Shown here one piece after another: positions 2,117 through 28,271 of a DNA stretch of 64,000 nucleotides (the stretch's first letter is position 1; each line of letters starts with the position of its first letter). This DNA is from Zopfochytrium polystomum (taxonomy: Eukaryota > Chytridiomycota > Chytridiomycetes > Chytridiales > Chytridiaceae), in contig JAIVFJ010000274.1 of assembly GCA_025765615.1 (NCBI GenBank), forward strand, positions 1-64,000, written 5' to 3'. Made by a program: the position numbers and the translations under genes. A model generated the notes under the pieces. That model had not been told where the DNA came from. It saw nothing but the letters and a program-made list of their open reading frames with translations, and made no database searches.

Positions 2117-4580
2117 TTACCAATCTCTCATTATCTTGCCTTTGCCACCGTCACTCGCAGACTTAGTTGCAGCAGCTGGCGTTGCTGCATTCTGCACACT
2201 CATGTTCGAATGACCTCTTCGTCCGAAGATGATGCCTGCCTTGGGGAAGGCCGGCCCCCGCCTCCAAAGGTGCTGGGCGCTTCTGGGCAGTGCGCCCAGT
2301 TGCCTTGCTTCCACCATCGTTACTGCTGGTGGTGTTTTCACCGACTCAGATGGACTACTCGCCGTGCCGCCAACCTCAACCAGCCCTGTTGCCAGCCCAG
2401 GAGCCGCTTTGGCCGGTCGGTGGTAGCACCGTGCGTTCCAAATGGCCAGTTAAAGATGCAAGGTGCAGAGGTGTCCACTTGTCCTGGTCCTCAGCGTTCA
2501 CAGCGGCACCTTCCTGCAACAAACAACTTGACCACTTCCAAATGGCTATTCTGTGATGCAACGTGGAATGGGGCCCATTTATTCTCCTTCTCAGCGTTCA
2601 CAGAGGCACCTTCCTGAATTAACCACAACCACTTTAGCGTAACCTCAGCAATCACAGTTGCACCTTCGTGTAACAACTGCTTCACTACTTCCAAATGGCA
2701 TTTGAAGTTGCAAAGTGGAGTGGAGTGGACTTGCTGTTGTCTTCAGCATTCACAGTGACACCTTCCCGCAACAACCACTTCACCAATTTAAATGTCCGTT
2801 TTTGCAAGCAACGTGGAGAGGTGTCCTTCCAAATTCATCAGCCTCATCAATTGGCATCCTGTGAAGGGAGAAACCATTCAAGCATTTTCTCTTCATCGTG
2901 GGAGTGCGATAAAACCTCTTATTTTGTAGTGTCTTCTGTCTGAATATATCTGACTAAATTTTCTGTTGATTGATTAAATAAGTTTAACTGACCTGGCTAC
3001 CTTTCCAGCTGCTAATTGCAAGTGCGCATCTGTACATTCCTGCTTGAAAACCATATGCATCCACCAATTTTGGGTCTGCACCCATCTTGGGTAGGATCGG
3101 AACAGTTCACACAAATCCTCCTTTTCCTGCAATCATCAAAGAAGTCAGTAGTGGGGACAAGCTGCTGGGTGCTGTTCTTTTGCACATCATCGTGCCTGCA
3201 GAAAATCACAGAGCCCAAAACATACTCGCTGGGAATATTTTTGGCTTGTAAGCAGGCCACCAGAGACTTGCTGAGGCCAGCCCCACCGTTCAACTACAGC
3301 ACGTTGCCCACATTGGCAGAGAGGAGCCAGGTGTGCACATTCTTCACGTCCACATAGGCCTTCTCGGGCCTCGCAGAATCCACGGCAACATCCACAGGCT
3401 GGAGCCAATCCTTGAATTTGTCAACAGGCGTCTGAATCCAGCCCCGCAGGGGCAGGAGTCTGAACAATCTGGCGCTGCTCAATTTCCTTCACAAGAAAAG
3501 CAATCTGACCTTCCCACTCCTTGGTTCCAGGAGTCTTTCCTTCAAAATCGGTGTACAGCAATCTGAGTCGGGGTCAGGTGGTTTGTTTCACAGCAGAAAC
3601 AAATCAGAGAGTCGCTAACTTACTCGGCTGTGATTGCAATCACTTCTCGTTTGCAGCTCCACCTCTTTTCAGAAGTCGAATTGGCACTTGAGGTTTCCTT
3701 TGAGACCTGGCGTTCCTGATCTCCGTCAGGCAGTTGGGGCTCTTCTGCTTTGGGTTTCAGACAAAAATTAAGATGGTACCTGATACTCAAGGGTGAGGAC
3801 AAGGATGAAAACTTTACTGGAGTCAACCCCTTCAGCCATGGCCTGATCAATGGAACCAGACATGTTGTAAATACCCAACCAAATATCAAGGCCAAGGTCA
3901 AATCTTCAAAAATGCTTTTGATAGTAGCTTGACTGCCCCATCTTCAAGAATTGTCAGAATGTAAAGGACAAATTGTCCATTCAGCTTACTGATAGGACAA
4001 GAGTCCATCAAACACTTGTGCAATACTGGCACAGCAGGCTAGGGCTGGAGCTGGAGGAGCTGCGCCCAGGGGAACTCTAAATGGCTGAATTTGAAAGCGT
4101 CGCCTTGCTTTCATGTTGGATTCCTTGATCAAGTTCTCTGCATAAGCTCCAGCTTGTCTGACACTCTTCATCTCAGTCCCACTTTTCAAAAGAATATCAA
4201 TGTCTTGGTCAGAAAAAAGGTCTGTATGTTGGAGAATGAGAATTGATGAGCATGAAAGCAGAGATGACCTTACCTTCTCTTTCAGGTTTTCCAGTGTGGG
4301 AGAATCAAGCTGGGGAATCTGAATGGGTGCTTCATCAAGATACTGGACTTCAACCCAGTACCAAAGCTGAAACTAAGCCAGAAAGCATGGCTGATCTCAA
4401 CTACTGAAAAGGGATCCATTATAAGTACTGATGGCGAGAAGAACATAATCCAAGAATCAAGTTGGTTGGGAAGTGCTTTCTTTGTTGGGAGGAGACAAGT
4501 GCACTCACATTTTGGATGGAATCTGACTGGAGCGCAATGCGCAGCGGAAAAATTCATAAAACGTCTGTCGCTGTTGCATT
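2117..4580 (-). pseudogene. Decayed TIR-NACHT-ankyrin (NLR-like) gene
   Basis: Read on the minus strand from 4580 downwards. A short first piece may begin with MQQRQTFYEFF near 4575. Exon-like block 4368-4276 (YLDEAPIQIPQLDSPTLENL) ends at a gtaagg donor. The next block, from about 4225, reads DIDILLKSGTEMKSVRQAGA and leads into a TIR domain (about 4020-3470): VFDGLLSYQ, LDIWLGIYNMSGSIDQAMAE, SSKVFILVLTLEYQ, KSPNCLTEIRNA, IAITAE, LLYTDFEG. The Glu in NCLTE lies where TIR NADases keep their catalytic Glu. Then WLQPVDVAVDSARPEKAY and a P-loop LNGGAGLSKSLVACL (about 3420-3250) resemble fungal NACHT-type NTPases; the Walker A has Ser where Gly normally precedes Lys. About 2890-2380 gives ankyrin units: DEFGRTPLHVACKNGHL, VTVNAEDNSKSTPLHFA, DKWTPLHLASLTGHLE. 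One in-frame TAG (3294), several one-base shifts and the AT-richer base composition mark decay. The overall order TIR, NTPase, repeats is that of an NLR-type sensor. Confidence 0.6.
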
Positions 4581-5249
4581 TCTTGTTTGCAATATCAAGT
4601 TCTAACTGTCAATTTTGACAGATATGCCGTGAGACGGGCTGAGCCCAATGGAGTTGCTTCTATAGAGAAGTGGGACGGAAAACAGAGTGAGCAAGGTGAA
4701 AAGAAGCGAGTGGGTCTCTCCAGAGGTGAATCACAGAGGTTCAGAAAGATCTGGTTGTGGTATGAACGCGATTAGACAGAGTTTGCACTAAGCAACTGAA
4801 CAGTTTGATCCGTGGTGGTTGTGTTGTGTCAACTCATCTCGAAACCAAAAAATACAAAACCGGGCAAAACCGGGCAAATCTGTGTGTGATATCACGAGGC
4901 CTGAAGGGAAAGGAGTGGGGCAGCGCGGGCAAAGGGGCTGTTGATCCGCCGCCGTCAGTGTCGCTCCTGCGATTCAAGGCGGTTGTTAAGGTGGCGTGTT
5001 CTGGGTTCTGCCCGAAAGGCAGGATGCCGAATCCAAGGCCAGTACAACAGCGCTTACACGGAGCCCGCCTGAGCGATCAATAAGTCGTGCGGAGAAGGCC
5101 TGGTTTATTGTTGTTTTTGTTGTTGTCATTGCGCAGTGCGACGCGGCGACTACCCACCTTCAACCCCCCACCCGCCCCCCCAATTCCCAACAAAGCTCAT
5201 TATCCAAATCCCATCAGCAACACGGAGAGCAGGTCACGCCAGAAAGCTC
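4581..5249. other. Intergenic, no gene seen
   Basis: AT-richer to about 4900, then GC-rich. It should hold the upstream part of the TIR-NACHT gene and the 3' flank of the ART gene. A short direct repeat (accgggcaaa, twice) lies near 4860-4877. No supported coding signal. Confidence 0.4.
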
Positions 5250-8051
5250 TCACTTTTTCTTGCCTCCCCCACCGCCACTCGCTGGCTTGGCTGCACTCGC
5301 CGGCTTTGCTGCTGCTTGTTGTTGCTTCTTCGGCGCGGCAGCCTGCTGCTGCTTCGGTGCCGCAGTCGCCTGCTGCTTTTGCGGTGCTGCCTGCTTAGTC
5401 CCCTCCTGCTGCTTACCCCCGCCGCCGCCGCCGCCCGAAGCGGTACTAGTCGACCTCGCAGCTGTCTGCTGCTGCTTCTGGGTAGGCGCCGGCTTCGTTC
5501 CGCTGTTGTTTCCACCACCACCACTTGTGCGACCGCCGCCCGTGCTTTTCACAGCGGGGCTGGAGCTCTTACCGCCACCGCCACCGCCCCCCGTTGGTTC
5601 GCGCTGGGGTCGCCTTGGTACCGCCTGCACCGCCACCTTGCGTGCTGCCTCGAGCTGGAGTTGATTTCCCACCACCACTACCTCCGCCGCCAGCCACTGG
5701 TTTGCCGGTAGTACCGGCGGCACCACCGCGAGCCCCCGTGCCTTTCGCTACACCGCCGCCGCCACCTGCCCCCGCCAGCCTTGGACTGTCCTCCAGCACC
5801 GCCACCTCCGCGTGCAGGTGCAGAGGCTCTGCTGACAGTCTGGGTCGCGCCGCCTCCGCGTCCACCACCTGATGCCTTGCCACCAGCGCCGCCTGCTTTA
5901 CCTGCGCCGCCGCCATTCGCGCTCCCTCCACCACCGCCACGAGTCGCTGCGGTTGCCGCCTTACCCCCGGCTCCGGTCGTGCCGCGTTGTCCACCAGCGG
6001 AAGCCTTGCCAGAGGCTCCACTGGCTTTACTTACACCGCCACCCTTTCCACCTGCTCCACCCCCGCCGCCGCCACGCGTCTGCATTCCTCCGTTGCCTCC
6101 GGCCGCGGAAGTCTGGCCGCCTCCACCGGTACCGCCGGCGCTGCGTCCACCAGCAGCCTGCGTCTTGCCGTTGCCGGCGCCTCCGCCCTTTGGTCGCGCA
6201 CCAGCAGCCTTACTTGCAGCTCCGGCTGTTTGGCCGCCTCCTCCGTTCACACTGGCACCACGGCCGGCCGCTGGCGCCTTGCCACCGGCACCGCCGGTTT
6301 TCCCGCCTGACCCAGTCGCTGAAGCTTTGCCGTCTCCGACGTTACCACCAGCGCTGCGTCCACTAGCCTGCATCTTGGCGTTGCCGCCACCAGCTTTGCC
6401 TCTGGCGGAACCAGCGCCTCCGGCCTTGCCGCCGCCGCCTCCGCCCTTCGCTCCCGCACCGGCAGCCTTACTTGCGAGCCCGGCTGTTTTGCCGCCTCCT
6501 CCGTTCGCGCCGGCGCTACGGCCGGCCGCTGGAGCCCTCCCACCGGCACCGGCGGTTTTGCCGCCTGCACCAGTTGCTGTTGCTTTACCCCCTATCAGCA
6601 GCGCCGCTCGAACCGCGTCCTCCGGTCTGTATCTTCCCGCCAGCGGAGTTGCCCCCTTTACCAACGCCGCCGCCACCGCCACGGTTCGCGACCGCAGCCT
6701 TGCTACCAGCAGCGACCGCCTTGCCACCTCCAGCTGCCGCCTTCCCAGCGGCGGCTTCAGTTTTGCCACCGCCACCGCCGCTGCCCTTGACGCCGTTGCC
6801 GCTGCCGGTTCCAGCACTGCCGCGTGTCGTCACCGCCGCTTTTCCGCCAGCACCACCACCTTTGCCGCTGTCTTTGCCGCCGATACTGGCGACGCTAGCT
6901 TTGCTACCACGGCCGCCGGCGACCTTTGCAAGTACAGCCGCACCACCGCCACCGCGGGTCGCCGCCGCCGCCTTGGTGCCGGCCGCCGCTCCTTTTCCAC
7001 CGCCTGCCGGAGCCTTCCCATTGGCGCCGCCAGTTTTGCCGTCTCCACCGCCGGCGCTTTTGGCGGCTGCGGTTCCTCCCGCGCCGCGGGCAGTCCCCAT
7101 CGTCTTGCCGTTAGCCGCCGGAGTCTTTCCATTGTTTGCAATAGCTTTACCGCGAGCCGCCGTACCCTTTCCACCTCCCGCGGCAGAGCTAGCGCCCGCA
7201 GTTCCAGCTTTTGCAGGGCCGTCGCCGCCACCCGCTCTTGCCAGCGCCGGTGCCAGCACCGCCGCCGCCACCGCCGCGTGTCGTTCCCGCAGTCAAAGCC
7301 TTGCCGCCATTCAAGGCTCCTTTGCCACCTCCCGCTGCCCCCTTGACGCCAGCGGTACCGGTTTTGGCAGCGCCGCCTCCGCCACCTATCGTCGTACCCT
7401 TTCCACCTCCCCCGGTAGCCTTCCCGCGGGCGGTTCCAGCTTTTGCAGGGCCGCCGTCGCTACCGCCCCTACTTGGGGCAGCTCCAGAACCCCTGCCTGC
7501 GCGAGTCGTCCCCGCCGTCGAAGCAGTTTTGCCCCCTGTCAACGTTCCTTTAGTTTCGCCAGCACCGCCACCTCTGGGATCTGCGCCCTTGCCCCGTCCT
7601 GTAGCAGCCTTGCCGCCAGCGGCTCCAGATTTGCCGCCGGCGGCGGTTCCAGCAGCCGCGCCGCCCCCTTTTCCACCGCCGGTTGCCGTCTTGCCGTTGC
7701 TGGTGCTGACTTTGGCGCCAGCGGCGACGGCCGCACCGGCACCAGCATTTGGAGCGCGTCCCACAGCAGCAAGCAGCAGTCTTGCCGCCGCCGGCACCAC
7801 CGGCTTTTCCGTTTCCGCCGGCTTTGTCGGTACCCGCCGCCGCCAGCGCCGCGAGTTGTCGCCGCTGTCGACTTGCCGCCGGTCGTCGACGTCGTTCCTT
7901 TGCCACCTCCTGCAGCGGCACCAGTCGCCGCCATCTTTCCGCCGGCCGCAGCCGCCTTGCCGTTTCCGTTCGCCTTGCCGTCCGCCCCGGTATTGGATTT
8001 GACACCAGCGGCGCCCGATTTTGCGGCCTTACCGCATCCGCCTCCAGCTCT
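5250..8051 (-). repeat. 2.8-kb Gly/Ala/Lys/Thr low-complexity coding tail
   Basis: The minus strand reads as imperfect units such as GGGGKTAGAGGKAPAAGR and GGGKAAATRGGGG. The Gly/Lys pattern is kept but moves between all three frames, with changes near 7830, 7780, 7230, 6600, 5790 and 5600. The last 150 bases switch to Gln-rich blocks (QKQQATAAPKQQQAAAPKK) before GGGGGKKK-stop. The plus strand is also open, as Pro/Ala-rich sequence, over long stretches. The tail is attached to the ART 1 exon through a short intron. Confidence 0.6.
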
Positions 8052-8668
8052 GCGGGTAGAGGGTCTTTTTGGTTTTTGTTAGTTTCTGTTTAGATGACCC
8101 TTTCTCTCACCCACTAACCTCTCCTCCCAACTCCCTCAAAGAATAAAGGCGCGACGCGACGTACCGATCCGTCTCTTCTAATCAGCTGGCACGCGTCAGC
8201 GGGGATGTGATTCTTGACGAGCACCTCCTTGTTGATTCTCGCCCAACTCTCAGTCAGCCCGCCCGACCCCTCGGTGTGCTTGACCATGTCGACGTGGCCG
8301 CCGTCGTGGTAGCCGGGGATCTTGTTGGGGTCAATTTTGAGCACGCCGGCGCCATCGCCGTTCTTGTCGATTTTCCGGGCGTGCTTGAGGTTCTTGGTTG
8401 TGGAGATGTACTGGGAGTCGGTCCAGCCGTAGGTGTGGTCGGACGGGGAGCGGTGGGTTGCGCCGGGGGCTTTCGCGTTGAGGCCGTTCTCGCGCCAGGT
8501 GGAGGCTTCTTTGGAGTTTATGGCGCGGTAGAGGGGCCCCGTGGCGCTGGAACTGGCGCCGGGGCCTGGCTGAGCGGCGGCTGGATAATTGTGGAGTAAC
8601 AGGAGCTGGAGAACGAGGAGGGCGACGAAGAGGCATGTTGTGGAGGGGAGGCGTGTTGGTAGGCTCAT
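5250..8668 (-). CDS. Secreted ADP-ribosyltransferase-like protein with giant Gly/Lys/Ala tail (ART 1)
   Basis: Exon 1 (8668-8165, about 168 codons) starts with a signal peptide (MSLPTRLPST, then a Leu-rich core and PAAAQPG). It carries the marks of the enterotoxin-A/pierisin-type ADP-ribosyltransferase fold: LYRA (Arg on strand 1), SQYISTT (STS-like motif) and NKEVLVKNHIP (the ExE/QxE position, here Asn-x-Glu). Exon 1 ends at a gtacgt donor after IRRDGS. From about 8051 to 5250 the minus strand encodes a Gly/Ala/Lys/Thr-rich tail ending QQQAAAKPAS...GGGGGKKK-stop. The exon-2 join is one base out of phase compared with the paralogues at 16.2 and 17.3 kb, and the tail changes frame about six times, so the full protein is not resolved. 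The product is probably secreted; its target is unknown. A Met at 8689 is an alternative start. Confidence 0.55.
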
Positions 8669-8829
8669 CGGGCGGGGCTGAGGCGGCATATGAAAGGCGA
8701 CTTTGGGGCAGCGAGGATTTGCTTTTGATTGAAGAGCGAGAGGGAAAGTGATGCGTTCCGCTGAAGGCAAAGGCTGAGCCAAAAATTGATCGGTCCGAGG
8801 CGAGCCGGGCACGTATCAAGAAAAAGACA

Positions 8830-24270: not shown

Positions 24271-24736
24271 TTGATCGCACGGAAGTAGTCGCTGTCCCAC
24301 ACCCCAAGGAGCAGAGCAGCGTTGCCGCCTGTCATAACGCGGCGAGGGCCCGAGCTGTTCATTGTCATTGAGGTATCTATTCTATCGCTCCGTAAACATT
24401 CTTCTCCCCGTTTGACAACTGTACCCGCTTATCTTTTTTTCGCTTTCCCTGTGTAGGTGTAGTCATTAGTCAAGCCTCTTACGAGCCCACCAACCCAAAG
24501 CCCAATCCTTGTTGTCTCAGACGTCAGCCGCTCGTTGACGGCCCTGTGGAATGGAGAATTGTCGTAAATTCGCTTTTTTATCATTTAGTTAACGATTCTT
24601 GGGGGGTTTGGGCGAAGCCCACTCTGCCGTCGTTGGACTCCAGCGAATCTATACGAAGCTTCCATTAGGAGGACCAAATGTAGATTATATTGGTTGAGTG
24701 AACTCGGATATTATAACGTACCCCGTTCCTCATTTC
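24271..24736. other. Intergenic, no gene seen
   Basis: 3' flank of the kinase-like gene. No coding pattern seen. Confidence 0.4.
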
Positions 24737-27110
24737 TCATTTCTTCTTGCCTCCCCCCACCACCTCCGCCTCTCGCCGGCTTTGCCGCCGCAGCAGCAGC
24801 CGGTTTCGCGGCCACCTGCTGTTGCTTGGACTCGTACCCTGTTGCTGCTTTGGAGTCCGCTTGCTGCTGCTTTGTCGTAGCTTGCTGCGGCTTTGATGAA
24901 GCGTTCTGCTTCTGCACCATCGCCTGTTTGCCCCCAACGCTGCCGCCACCTCCACCTCCCCCGGTACCACTGGACCGTGAAGCCATCTGCGGCTTCTGAG
25001 CCGGCGCCGCCTTCGTCGTGACACCGCCACCGCCGGCACTGCCAGCATTCCTCGCAGGGCTCTTTGCTGCACTACCTCCACCGCTGCCGCCACCGCCACC
25101 GCTGGTAGTACGCGCGGGAGCCGCCTTGCTGGCCACAGAGCCGCCCGCGTTAGCCCGAGCCCCAGGTGTTTTCGAGCCACCACCACCTCCGCCGCCACCG
25201 GCACCCGCTCCTCTTCTCGTCGTAACCTTTGCTGCACCACTGCCGCCAGCCCCGCCGCCTCCACCACCTGCTTTGCTGCTCGACCCAGTCCCCTTGCTGC
25301 CGCCACCGTTCCCGCCGACGCTACGTCCGCCTGTCGGCGCCTTACTTGCTCGTGCCGCTCGCTTTGGCGCCGCTGCCGCCTCCACTGCCGCCGATCTTGG
25401 TCGCACCACCTTTGGCGTCTGGGGCTCCCCCGCCGCCACTACGCGTCGTTCCTACTACCTTACTACCAGCTTCCGGCTCCTTTGCCTCCGTCCCCAACAT
25501 TTGCACTAGCGCCGCGTCCCGCTGCTGTGTTTTCGCAACGCCAGTCTTTCCTGCACCGCCCTTGGCGGATGCAGCATCGGTGCCGCCGCGAGTCGTTATT
25601 CCTGCCTTAGTGCCAGTTTCGGTTCCTTTGCCATTGGCGCCAGCTTTACCGCCTGCGCCCCCGCCCCCAGCTTTGCTCGAACCACCATTCGTGGCTGCAA
25701 CCCGACCACCGCCACCCCGACTCGTTCCCCCTGCGTTGCCGCCAGCCGGAGCTTGCTTGCCTCCGCCACCGACGTTTCCGCGCCCCGCAACGGTTTTTCC
25801 CTCTTTACCGCCGGAGCCGCCACCGCCGCCAGCTTTGCTTGCGCCGCTCTTGACGGATCCAGCACCATTGCCACTTGTTGTTATTCCCGCTTTGCTAATA
25901 GCTGGGGTTGCTTTCCCCGCCGCCTCCGACGTTCGAGCCGGTTGCCGCGACCCGCAGTCGCGGTCTTGCCGGTGGTTCCCTGCGTTTTACCGCCGCCGCC
26001 GCCGATTGCTTTACTTGCAACGCCCTTGGCGGCTCCAGCAGCGCCACGTCCTTCACCACGGGACTTCCCTTCCGCCGGAGTAACTTTCCCACCGCCTCCA
26101 ATGTTCGCACCGGTGCTCCACCCGCTTTGCTGCTGCGGCTGTCGCTAGGTTTACCAGCACCGTCTTTGACCGTTCCTCGAGCTTTGCTGCCGCCCTGGGT
26201 TCGTTTCCCGCTACCTCCACCTGTGCCTGTGCCGCGTCCCGCTGTTGTGGTCTTTACATTGGAACCAAACGCTTTGGTACCTCCGCCGCCGACGCCGCTG
26301 CCGCCAACAGCTTTGCCTGCACCGCCTTTGGCGGCTTCAGAAACACCACTGCCGCCTGATTTGCTGCCAGCCCCGGCTGGGTTTCCTTTCCCGCCGCCTC
26401 CGCCGCTCGTGCCGGTGACCCGTCCCGCTGCTGTGGTCTTGCCTGTGGTGCCAAGTGCTTTACCGCCACCGCCACCACCACCGCCGCCAGCTTACCCGCA
26501 CCGCCCTTGGCGGTTGCACCAGCAAGGACGGCGCCACCGCCACGGGTCGCGGCTCCCGCCTTGCCTCCAGCACCGACCGCCCGGGCGGATGTTTGTCGTT
26601 GGTGACCCAACCAGTGGCGCCGCCCTTGTTCGCACCTCCGGACGACGCGCCAGCTTTTCCGCCAGCTGCAGTCCCCTTGCCGCCGGCTCCCCCGCTGCCT
26701 TTCCCCCCAGCCGCCGCCGCCTGCGACTTGCTACTGCCGCCGCCCGGCTTTCCGCCTCCGCCGTCACGCTTGCCACCCGAACCGGTCCCCGTCCCAGCTT
26801 TACTGCCAGCCGCATTAGCTTTGCCTCCCACCCCAGCCGCATTTCCAGCACCGCCTCCACCGTCCTTCATCTTTCCACCCGCCACCCCAGCCTTCCTGGC
26901 AGTTTCGCCGCCACCGCTGACTTTGCTCCCACCGGCGCCTCCCTTCCCTGCCGCATCCATCGCCGCCGCCGCCGCCTTCCCGCCCTTGCTCCCGGTGCCG
27001 CTCGTCTTCGCTCCATCACCGCCAGCGTTCTTCGCCCCCGACGAGCCGCCGCACGCGCCACCGGCGCGTCGGAAAAGCTCGCGGCCTTCGCGGAACTTGA
27101 ACCCGGCGGC
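24737..27110 (-). repeat. 2.4-kb Gly/Ala/Lys low-complexity coding tail
   Basis: Minus strand reads units such as GGKGSGGAGGKGTAAGGKAG and SKAGGGGGGAGGSGAAK, with frame changes near 26600 and again before 25440. The last 200 bases become Gln-rich (KPQQATTKQQQADSKAATGY), then AAAAAAKPAR and GGGKKK-stop. This end is nearly the same as the end of the ART 1 tail at 5250-5400. Confidence 0.65.
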
Positions 27111-28271
27111 GGAGCAGGCCATGCGGACGGCGAAGCGGTCGCGGAGCTGGCGGCCCTCGACGGTGTCGGGTGGTTGAGATTTTCTTTGCTGTTTTGCGGG
27201 CGTTTGGGGTTTGTGTGAGGGTATTGTGAGAGATGAAAGCAACTTTCCAAACAAACGGTGGGCAGCACGTTACCAGATCCCCAGTCGATGAGCTCCATCT
27301 TTGGAACGGTTCCCTAGAGACACTCATAAGTTTTCCAGATGAACCCGTTCATCTCAGCCTCTCATCCAAACTCAACTGGCTTATCGCTGGGACTAGCGTG
27401 CACGCGGATATTGGCCGGCAGCGGGTCATAATGGACGTAGCCCGTATCCTTCTGCTTCTGCGCGACCTGGCTGTAAATGGCGTCACTGAGTTTCACCTTG
27501 TTGGGTGGCTTTCGGGTTTTTCGCTTGACAGGAGGAACTTTGACTTTGCCTCTGTGCTTTCCTTCTGGGTGTATAGCCAGTCTTTCAAACCGGTGGTGCC
27601 GACTTTTTTTTTGCACCATCTTGTTGCCTTCTGCCGAGATGAGCTGGCCGGCTGAACAAATCGAGTTGGGGTTCGTGACTTGACGAGACTCAGACTGGGG
27701 ATGAAAACAAACGGTACCTGCACGCGTTGCGTCCACTTCGACTTGGCCAATCTTTGTAGTGGGCAACGCTTCCTTGTAAATCACTTCGTTCGGCCCATGC
27801 TTAGCTTTGTATACAGTCGAAACCGTGCCCTGCTGGCCGACTTTGTCGCCGAGCTTGCCATTGGAAGCGGAGTTAACTTTTTTTTTCCGCCTTTCCCTGG
27901 AGAGAACGGCATTGAAGGTAGAAGGCTCACCTGAACTGACACACCGCCCACCGTTTCAGTGGTCCCAGACTGTTGATCGCGACAACGATAAAGGGAGAGG
28001 GAATGAGTTGTGAAACAGAGAGACTGATGAGAAATGAATCTTTTAACCTTTGATGGCGCACTGCTGCTACTTCCTTCTCCGCCCGACGCGAGCGCGTACG
28101 GCGGGATGGTCTGGAAAAGGACATAGATGGCTGCCACAAGAAACAGGATGCGAGCGAAGACCGCGGCGGCGGCGGCGGCGGCATCGCCGGGGGGAGCGGG
28201 CGGGAAGGCGATGCGGGCGACATGGGCGACCGCGGCGGACCGTGGGCGAAGGCATTTTCGTTGTTTTCCAT
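24737..28271 (-). CDS. Atypical protein-kinase-like protein with long Gly/Lys tail
   Basis: A consistent phase runs from the ATG at 28271 (MENNENAFAHGPPRSP, Pro-rich) through exons 28271-28048, 27969-27931, 27896-27718, 27630-27377, 27313-27269 and 27188 onwards. Kinase-like landmarks appear in order: Gly-rich loop GQQGTVSTVYKA; the VIYKEA lysine; a catalytic-loop-like VHYDPLPANIRV (HYD for HRD, Asn kept); and ELIDWGSGN (DWG for DFG), with about 90 residues between Lys and HYD, normal for kinases. Past DWG a helical part (VEGRQLRDRFAVRMACSAAG) leads to LFRRAGGACGG. A Gly/Ala/Lys tail then runs to about 24737, ending AAAKPAR...GGGKKK. The tail changes frame several times and a one-base shift lies just before its end. 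The second intron would be only 34 bases. Activity is uncertain; it could be a pseudokinase or a phosphotransferase. Confidence 0.55.

Follow-up and report, generated by a model that had tools for sequence, protein, structure and literature searches.

The minus strand of the window, a stretch of 64,000 nucleotides from the chytrid Zopfochytrium polystomum, carries a pseudogene at ~4405-2436 in which pieces of a TIR domain, a NACHT ATPase and an ankyrin array stand in order. From sequence comparison, we put at roughly three in four the probability that this is a dead member of a chytrid family of NLR-type receptors with variable ankyrin arrays and the sensing and NAD-cleaving mechanism proposed below. 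Taken alone, the dead gene is ordinary; what stands out is its family and the large number of TIR-type receptors that a chytrid has.

A decayed TIR-NACHT-ankyrin gene in the window

In a tblastn alignment with the spliced paralogue L049, the pieces of the window gene fell in order on the minus strand. The E value was 1e-46 for the first pieces and 1e-33 for the piece from the NACHT, and it was weaker for the later ones. Residues 18-370 of L049 align to the window, followed by residue 822 onward into the ankyrin array. The reversed window, used as a control, gave a best E value of 1.7. When the TIR of L049 was the query in a whole-genome search, it recovered the window at 3902-3750 (59%, E 1.1e-11) and a second time at 3753-3649 (E 2.3e-5). 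The profile check proposed in the sequence-only reading failed for two of the three domains: among ten single window fragments searched against Pfam, only ankyrin profiles reached their cut-offs, neither a TIR nor a NACHT profile matched, and the sole other result was a sub-threshold match to Plectin. The case for the window gene therefore rests on L049. The lack of TIR and NACHT matches in single fragments speaks for unrelated fragments lying together by chance; however, L049, unlike the reversed window, aligns with the pieces one after another along one strand, and it carries them in that order within a single open frame. We regard chance assembly as refuted by the in-order alignment and give it practically no weight, and the earlier claim of a decayed TIR-NACHT-ankyrin gene on one strand of a fungal genome stands. 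The search for intact relatives, proposed there together with the possibility that they would hold the pieces in separate, unrelated genes, led to L049, which joins all the parts in one open spliced frame.

The gene start at ~4405 is extrapolated from L049, and the coding homology itself spans only ~4354-2436; the gene is present within the extent of 2117-4580 first assigned to it, but the part at 2100-2408 is a flank shared with decayed sister copies. The following features are all on the minus strand. The N-terminal domain region (4010-4405) aligns by tblastn at 4354-4010 with residues 18-122 of L049. Within it, the place of intron 1 (~4273-4238) begins with gt and does not end in ag, indicating that the window copy does not keep every intron. 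The TIR starts at 3893-4009 (tblastn with L049 and translation) with DGLLSYQ, a stop-containing stretch and then WGSQATIKSIFEDL. It continues in a different frame at 3780-3893 with MSGSIDQAMAEG, in which 28 of 38 residues are identical to L049 and which the genome search recovered at E 1.1e-11. Inside the TIR, 35 nt that begin with gt and end in ag (3745-3779) lie at the same place as intron 3 of L049, which has 57 nt. The view that gt-ag introns separate the pieces was thus upheld at the place of intron 3 and not at that of intron 1.

The end of the TIR (3640-3744), supported by a tblastn piece at 3747-3568 and by the genome search, contains SPNCLTE at 3741-3721 in the six-frame translation, and this motif holds the Glu of the TIR motif at the expected place, as had been proposed. 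The pre-NACHT linker and the first part of the NACHT follow at 3147-3567 (residues 245-370 of L049, E 1e-33), with the P-loop-like GGAGLSKS at 3287-3264 in the same translation. At the deletion junction (3145-3147), residue 370 of L049 ends at 3147 and residue 822 begins at 3145. The pre-ankyrin region and first ankyrin unit occupy 2789-3145 (tblastn, and a Pfam Ank_4 match of 25.3 bits in 2780-2953), and the remnants of several further units, in more than one frame, occupy 2436-2789 (Pfam Ank matches of 35.6 and 22.1 bits, and tblastn).

The pieces of the gene are spread over three frames with stops in between, as seen by tblastn and translation. Residues 371-821 of L049 (~450 residues), which include Walker B with the remainder of the NACHT and the part after it, are absent near 3146, and the P-loop carries a Ser in place of the Gly of the paralogues (GGAGLGKS). 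The window copy therefore has neither the intact reading frame nor the intact P-loop expected of an NLR. Four sister copies, on contigs C752, C264, C479 and C267, share 78-97% DNA identity with the window in parts. The flank at 2100-2408, to which no strand is assigned, is shared in full with C752 and C264 (94.5%) and with C479 (90.8%), and up to 2175 only with C267 (97%). In all four copies, the sequence corresponding to 3270-3468 directly adjoins that corresponding to 4634-4700, indicating that the block containing the N-terminal domain and TIR is absent from all of them. C752 and C264 gave identical numbers in this comparison and may be alleles.

The AT-rich composition of the gene had been taken as a hint of a separate origin. 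The GC content of 14 family loci, some of which are the same gene, was 0.46-0.50 compared to 0.565 for the window. Low GC is therefore a family trait; the composition argument for a local foreign origin is not supported and was dropped.

Other features were noted in the window. These were a GATA zinc finger on the plus strand at 805-1041 (56.5 bits), an open reading frame on the minus strand at 8114-8815 that has a start resembling a signal peptide by eye and weakly matches DUF7587 (23.6 bits against a cut-off of 27), and two tracts of ~0.62-0.70 GC with strong skew at ~5200-8000 and 24500-27500, the first of which reads on the minus strand as a low-complexity frame rich in Gly, Ala and Lys. 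In the genome, four-unit TTAGGG gave 261 matches, all on the forward strand and none on the reverse among the matches listed (for example on C15, C20, C42, C63 and C76).

The family in the Zopfochytrium polystomum genome

The genome searched was the Z. polystomum assembly (80.16 Mb in 761 contigs; Chytridiomycota, Chytridiales). A mycovirus survey obtained dsRNA from strain WB228 (PMC7482067), which may differ from the strain sequenced. L049, on contig C291 (3.7-8.6 kb), is the sole member that was spliced in full and has seven exons, six introns of 46-57 nt that are all GT..AG, and an open spliced frame of 1516 aa. It begins with an N-terminal domain, which is followed by a TIR and a NACHT ATPase and, at the end, by a long ankyrin array. 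In Pfam searches, its first 968 residues matched the TIR profile TIR_2 at 65.1 bits (cut-off 28), with the older TIR model PF01582 below its cut-off (19.7 bits, cut-off 21.3). The central NACHT/NB-ARC ATPase of an NLR was found as NPHP3_N at 93.4 bits (cut-off 24.8); with 24.5 bits, the NACHT model was just under its cut-off of 26.7. A pattern search found GGAGLGKS and VDALDECG. The C-terminal repeats of an NLR were found as 16 ankyrin units in our own scan and as an Ank match of 97.6 bits (cut-off 21.1).

The exon pieces of L049 recur, unspliced, at a second locus on C18 (430 kb), where the ankyrin frame is 800 codons long and holds 21 units. In L051 on C57, a frame break interrupts the ankyrin exon. 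P0002, a deposited Z. polystomum protein that also takes in an upstream NTPase gene by fusion, has the same first four exon edges as L049; it matches contig C428 at 86-99% by pieces and at 99% over residues 172-1106, unspliced frames lowering the rest.

Profile searches of the genome contigs, whose counts are lower bounds, gave 85 TIR_2 matches, 79 of them above the cut-off. For NPHP3_N, 150 of 231 candidates were scored, and all among the matches listed were above the cut-off. TIRs of the window's kind were found at 49 places. Among the matches listed, 29 of the 49 were followed on their own strand by NACHT and ankyrin in line, 12 had NACHT without a listed ankyrin array and eight, the window included, had no listed NACHT. 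Several locus pairs, mostly on different contigs, are near-identical (C752/C264, C115/C418, C47/C516, C165/C244, C11/C570 and a pair on C120). All of these are possibly alleles that the assembly did not merge. Three or four pairs (C115/C418, C47/C516, C165/C244, with C4/C524 as a less certain fourth) bear on the counts of 49 and 29.

Variation in the ankyrin arrays

Seven genes with arrays have 6-16 ankyrin units each, and the range over eight genes is 6-21 when the C18 locus at 430 kb is included. We took 79 units from loci on eight contigs; the sister copy on C267 was left out before the units were counted, and none of the tests included C18 at 430 kb with its 21 units. The 74 units that resembled the consensus were kept for entropy. 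A second test used 60 inner units, leaving out first and last units and the divergent contigs C43 and C576. The most variable positions over the 74 units were, in descending order of entropy, 13, 1, 2, 10, 5, 3 and 14. Mean entropy was 1.72 bits at positions 2, 3, 5, 13, 14 and 33, which we take to be those varied in designed ankyrin proteins, compared to 0.44 elsewhere (permutation p 0.0004, 74 units), in a test coded after the variability ranking had been seen. With the 60 inner units, the permutation p was 0.0014. Positions 1 and 10 are among the most variable yet lie outside this set of six. Collectively, these results suggest that the units vary mainly at surface positions, the usual contacts with binding partners.

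At the six designed-ankyrin positions, pN/pS was 1.16 over the 60 units, with a bootstrap 5-95% interval (0.82-1.69) that spans 1, and outside them it was 0.66 (0.49-0.99). Across ankyrin repeats in general, constraint is lowest at the surface. Both points are consistent with real receptors whose ankyrin variation is neutral, unequal exchange spreading the units and the surface positions being merely unconstrained. In contrast, pN/pS was 2.75 at positions 1 and 10, which were picked after seeing the data, compared to 0.31 at the remaining sites, and constant positions such as 8 and 23 use one codon common to 51 of 51 units while variable positions carry many residues. We consider neutral variation possible and clearly less probable than selected variety.

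Inner units are as similar between genes (DNA identity 0.901) as within a gene (0.910), which points to exchange of units across the family or to a very recent common source. At the protein level, inner units within a gene had a mean identity of 0.844, with 35% of pairs at 0.85 or above, a figure obtained by a method that differs from that of Dyrka 2014, in which high internal conservation means more than 85% repeat identity over at least 100 aa.

The wider TIR, NACHT and HET repertoire

A TIR or TIR-like domain precedes 129 of 150 NACHT matches among the matches listed, alleles included. On the same basis, 41 of the 150 lie within 2 kb after a TIR of the window's kind, 88 lie within 2.5 kb after a divergent domain (for example C18:530636, C14:530587 and C176:53909) and 21 follow neither. 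The divergent domain reached 27.8 bits against the cut-off of 28 in one member tested, and it is therefore named TIR-like. WD40 repeats were found in three NACHT genes tested, two of the TIR-like group (C14 at 530 kb and C176 at 54 kb) and one of neither group (C159).

Other partners of TIRs were also observed. A kinase match of one family follows 17 of 41 further TIR matches among the matches listed. TIR-kinase pairs were seen at L002-L007 and at 17 places (on C162, C241, C415, C4, C144, C62, C60, C129, C94, C224, C199, C19 and C597), with a gap of 185-509 nt between TIR and protein kinase on the same strand; the kinase was confirmed by Pfam in L003, the only one tested. These pairs are apparently fusions. 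At L001 (C52:276794) the TIR is followed by Sel1 repeats, and at L008 (C50:65260) by a STAND-type ATPase with DUF7779.

HET domains gave 28 matches above the cut-off in a profile search (on C94, C398, C141 and 25 other places). Compared by eye with the listed NACHT matches, none of the 28 came closer than 5 kb to one of them; HET is therefore present and is not the output domain of NLRs here. A broader reading, to which we give even odds, is that this chytrid has a large and fast-changing TIR arsenal of ~40 TIR-NACHT genes, ~90 TIR-like-NACHT genes and TIR-kinase fusions, with TIR and not HET leading the output. Most TIR-NACHT genes would carry surface-variable ankyrin arrays swapped across the family, and the TIR-like-NACHT genes WD40, as found in the two tested. 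If this is true, chytrids would be the fungal group closest in design to plant TIR-NLR immunity, despite being labelled NLR-poor in surveys.

The TIR motif and the N-terminal domain

A C-x-x motif was found by pattern search in seven of ten distinct loci and not found by that search in the other three. The conserved Glu after this motif, which marks TIR NADases, is present in six of the seven and replaced by Asp in one. All seven motif-bearing genes have an intact P-loop (Walker A), and six have Walker B within the locus. Cleavage of NAD by TIRs such as Cat1, L6, AbTIR and RPP1 is established. The family gave weak matches to 11 solved TIRs including these four (E 4e-4 to 0.02 for the four), and the alignment pairs the Glu of L049 with one in Cat1. 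The TIR-NACHT part was modelled by AlphaFold with middling confidence (mean pLDDT 62). We infer that the family probably consists of NAD-consuming immune receptors. The one Asp and the 17 kinase matches after TIRs, among the matches listed, would also suit an adaptor TIR that lacks enzyme activity and recruits further proteins with a TIR, for example the TIR-kinases found in this genome. Set against this, six of seven members keep the Glu and the closest solved TIRs, weakly matched as they are, include NAD-cleaving ones; we think an adaptor role rather unlikely.

The N-terminal domain is suspected to have a ubiquitin-like fold. A profile search found PB1 in two of ten N-terminal pieces (the second piece of P0007 with E 1.4e-4 and 22.2 bits, cut-off 23.6, and the second of P0035 with E 0.069) and not in the other eight, that of L049 included. 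A profile of eight such pieces matched NPL4 and ubiquitins among solved structures from E 0.013. AlphaFold models of this part were uninformative (pLDDT ~25 in P0005 and 35 in the window piece), and a protein search with the N-terminal and TIR part of P0002 returned P0002 alone.

Proposed mechanism

In the mechanism that we propose for NAD-consuming receptors of this family, the ankyrin array would sense a foreign or altered molecule, upon which the NACHT would swap its nucleotide and oligomerise. The TIRs, clustered in this way, would cleave NAD+ via the conserved Glu, either making a signal or killing the cell. Arrays would change through gain, loss and exchange of units within and between genes, with selection favouring variety at the ankyrin binding surface. 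Copies would be born and die, and the window copy would have been inactivated by shifted frames, stops, the loss of an internal block and an altered P-loop.

Comparison with known systems

Earlier surveys place few NLRs in chytrids. Soanes 2010 confines NACHT to filamentous ascomycetes (PMC2939053), and Dyrka 2014 describes chytrids as without NLRs and the NLRs of Dikarya as having near-uniform, fast-changing repeats (PMC4986451). Two later papers report TIR in Chytridiomycota NLRs (Wojciechowski 2022; PMC9815663) and an NLR count down to one in species of Chytridiomycota (a 2025 survey; PMC12258605). No description of the scale of such a family or of variable ankyrin arrays was found in the literature searched, most of it outside subscription papers and book chapters. 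TIR in chytrid NLRs was already in print. Well over 100 NACHT matches behind a TIR or TIR-like domain in one chytrid genome, together with shared surface-variable ankyrin arrays, would locate the diversity of TIR receptors in fungi on an early branch. The family also offers a concrete gene set for testing NAD signalling in fungal defence.

Among deposited proteins, the closest layouts are the TIR-NACHT-WD40 proteins of Chytridiomycota (for example P0003 of Chytriomyces hyalinus and P0007 of Zopfochytrium), which likewise have TIR before NPHP3_N/NACHT and repeats but carry WD40 in place of ankyrin. P0003, P0004, P0006 and P0007 are 35-40% identical to L049 over TIR-NACHT. We examined 30 deposited chytrid relatives, chosen by organism name from 18 and 70 matches with P0036 and other groups excluded. 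NPHP3_N was found in 30 of 30, TIR_2 in 26 and WD40 in 22 (the latter two at E <=0.001), shares that are not frequencies because the proteins were found with TIR-NACHT queries. The ankyrin version seems to be the rarer form of chytrid TIR-NACHT. It occurs in another genus, as P0001 of Entophlyctis luteolus is a TIR-NACHT-ankyrin protein like L049, with 49% identity over TIR and NACHT. Seven ankyrin units were found in P0001, and the five inner ones vary at positions 2, 3, 5, 7, 13 and 25; its TIR_2 match is below the cut-off (24.6 bits, cut-off 28), and the TIR in the deposited model seems to be without its second half. The union of TIR with NACHT and ankyrin had been called unusual for a fungus; as regards TIR with NACHT, this holds for Dikarya, but several chytrid genera have the pair among deposited proteins.

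Plant TIR-NB-LRR receptors likewise combine a TIR, a STAND ATPase and a repeat array, with NB-ARC and LRR where the chytrid family has NACHT and ankyrin. To our knowledge, incompatibility is seen where hyphae fuse, and chytrids form no such fusions, which makes it improbable that the family serves self/non-self recognition between individuals, like HET-E in Podospora, and not defence. For such a role speaks the likeness to the HET-NACHT-WD genes (HET-E/D/R) and NACHT-ankyrin NLRs of Dikarya, which have the same effector-NACHT-repeat layout with near-uniform variable repeats (PMC4986451). The HET-E group has an N-terminal HET and not a bona fide TIR (PMC10197012), and Dikarya are other phyla.
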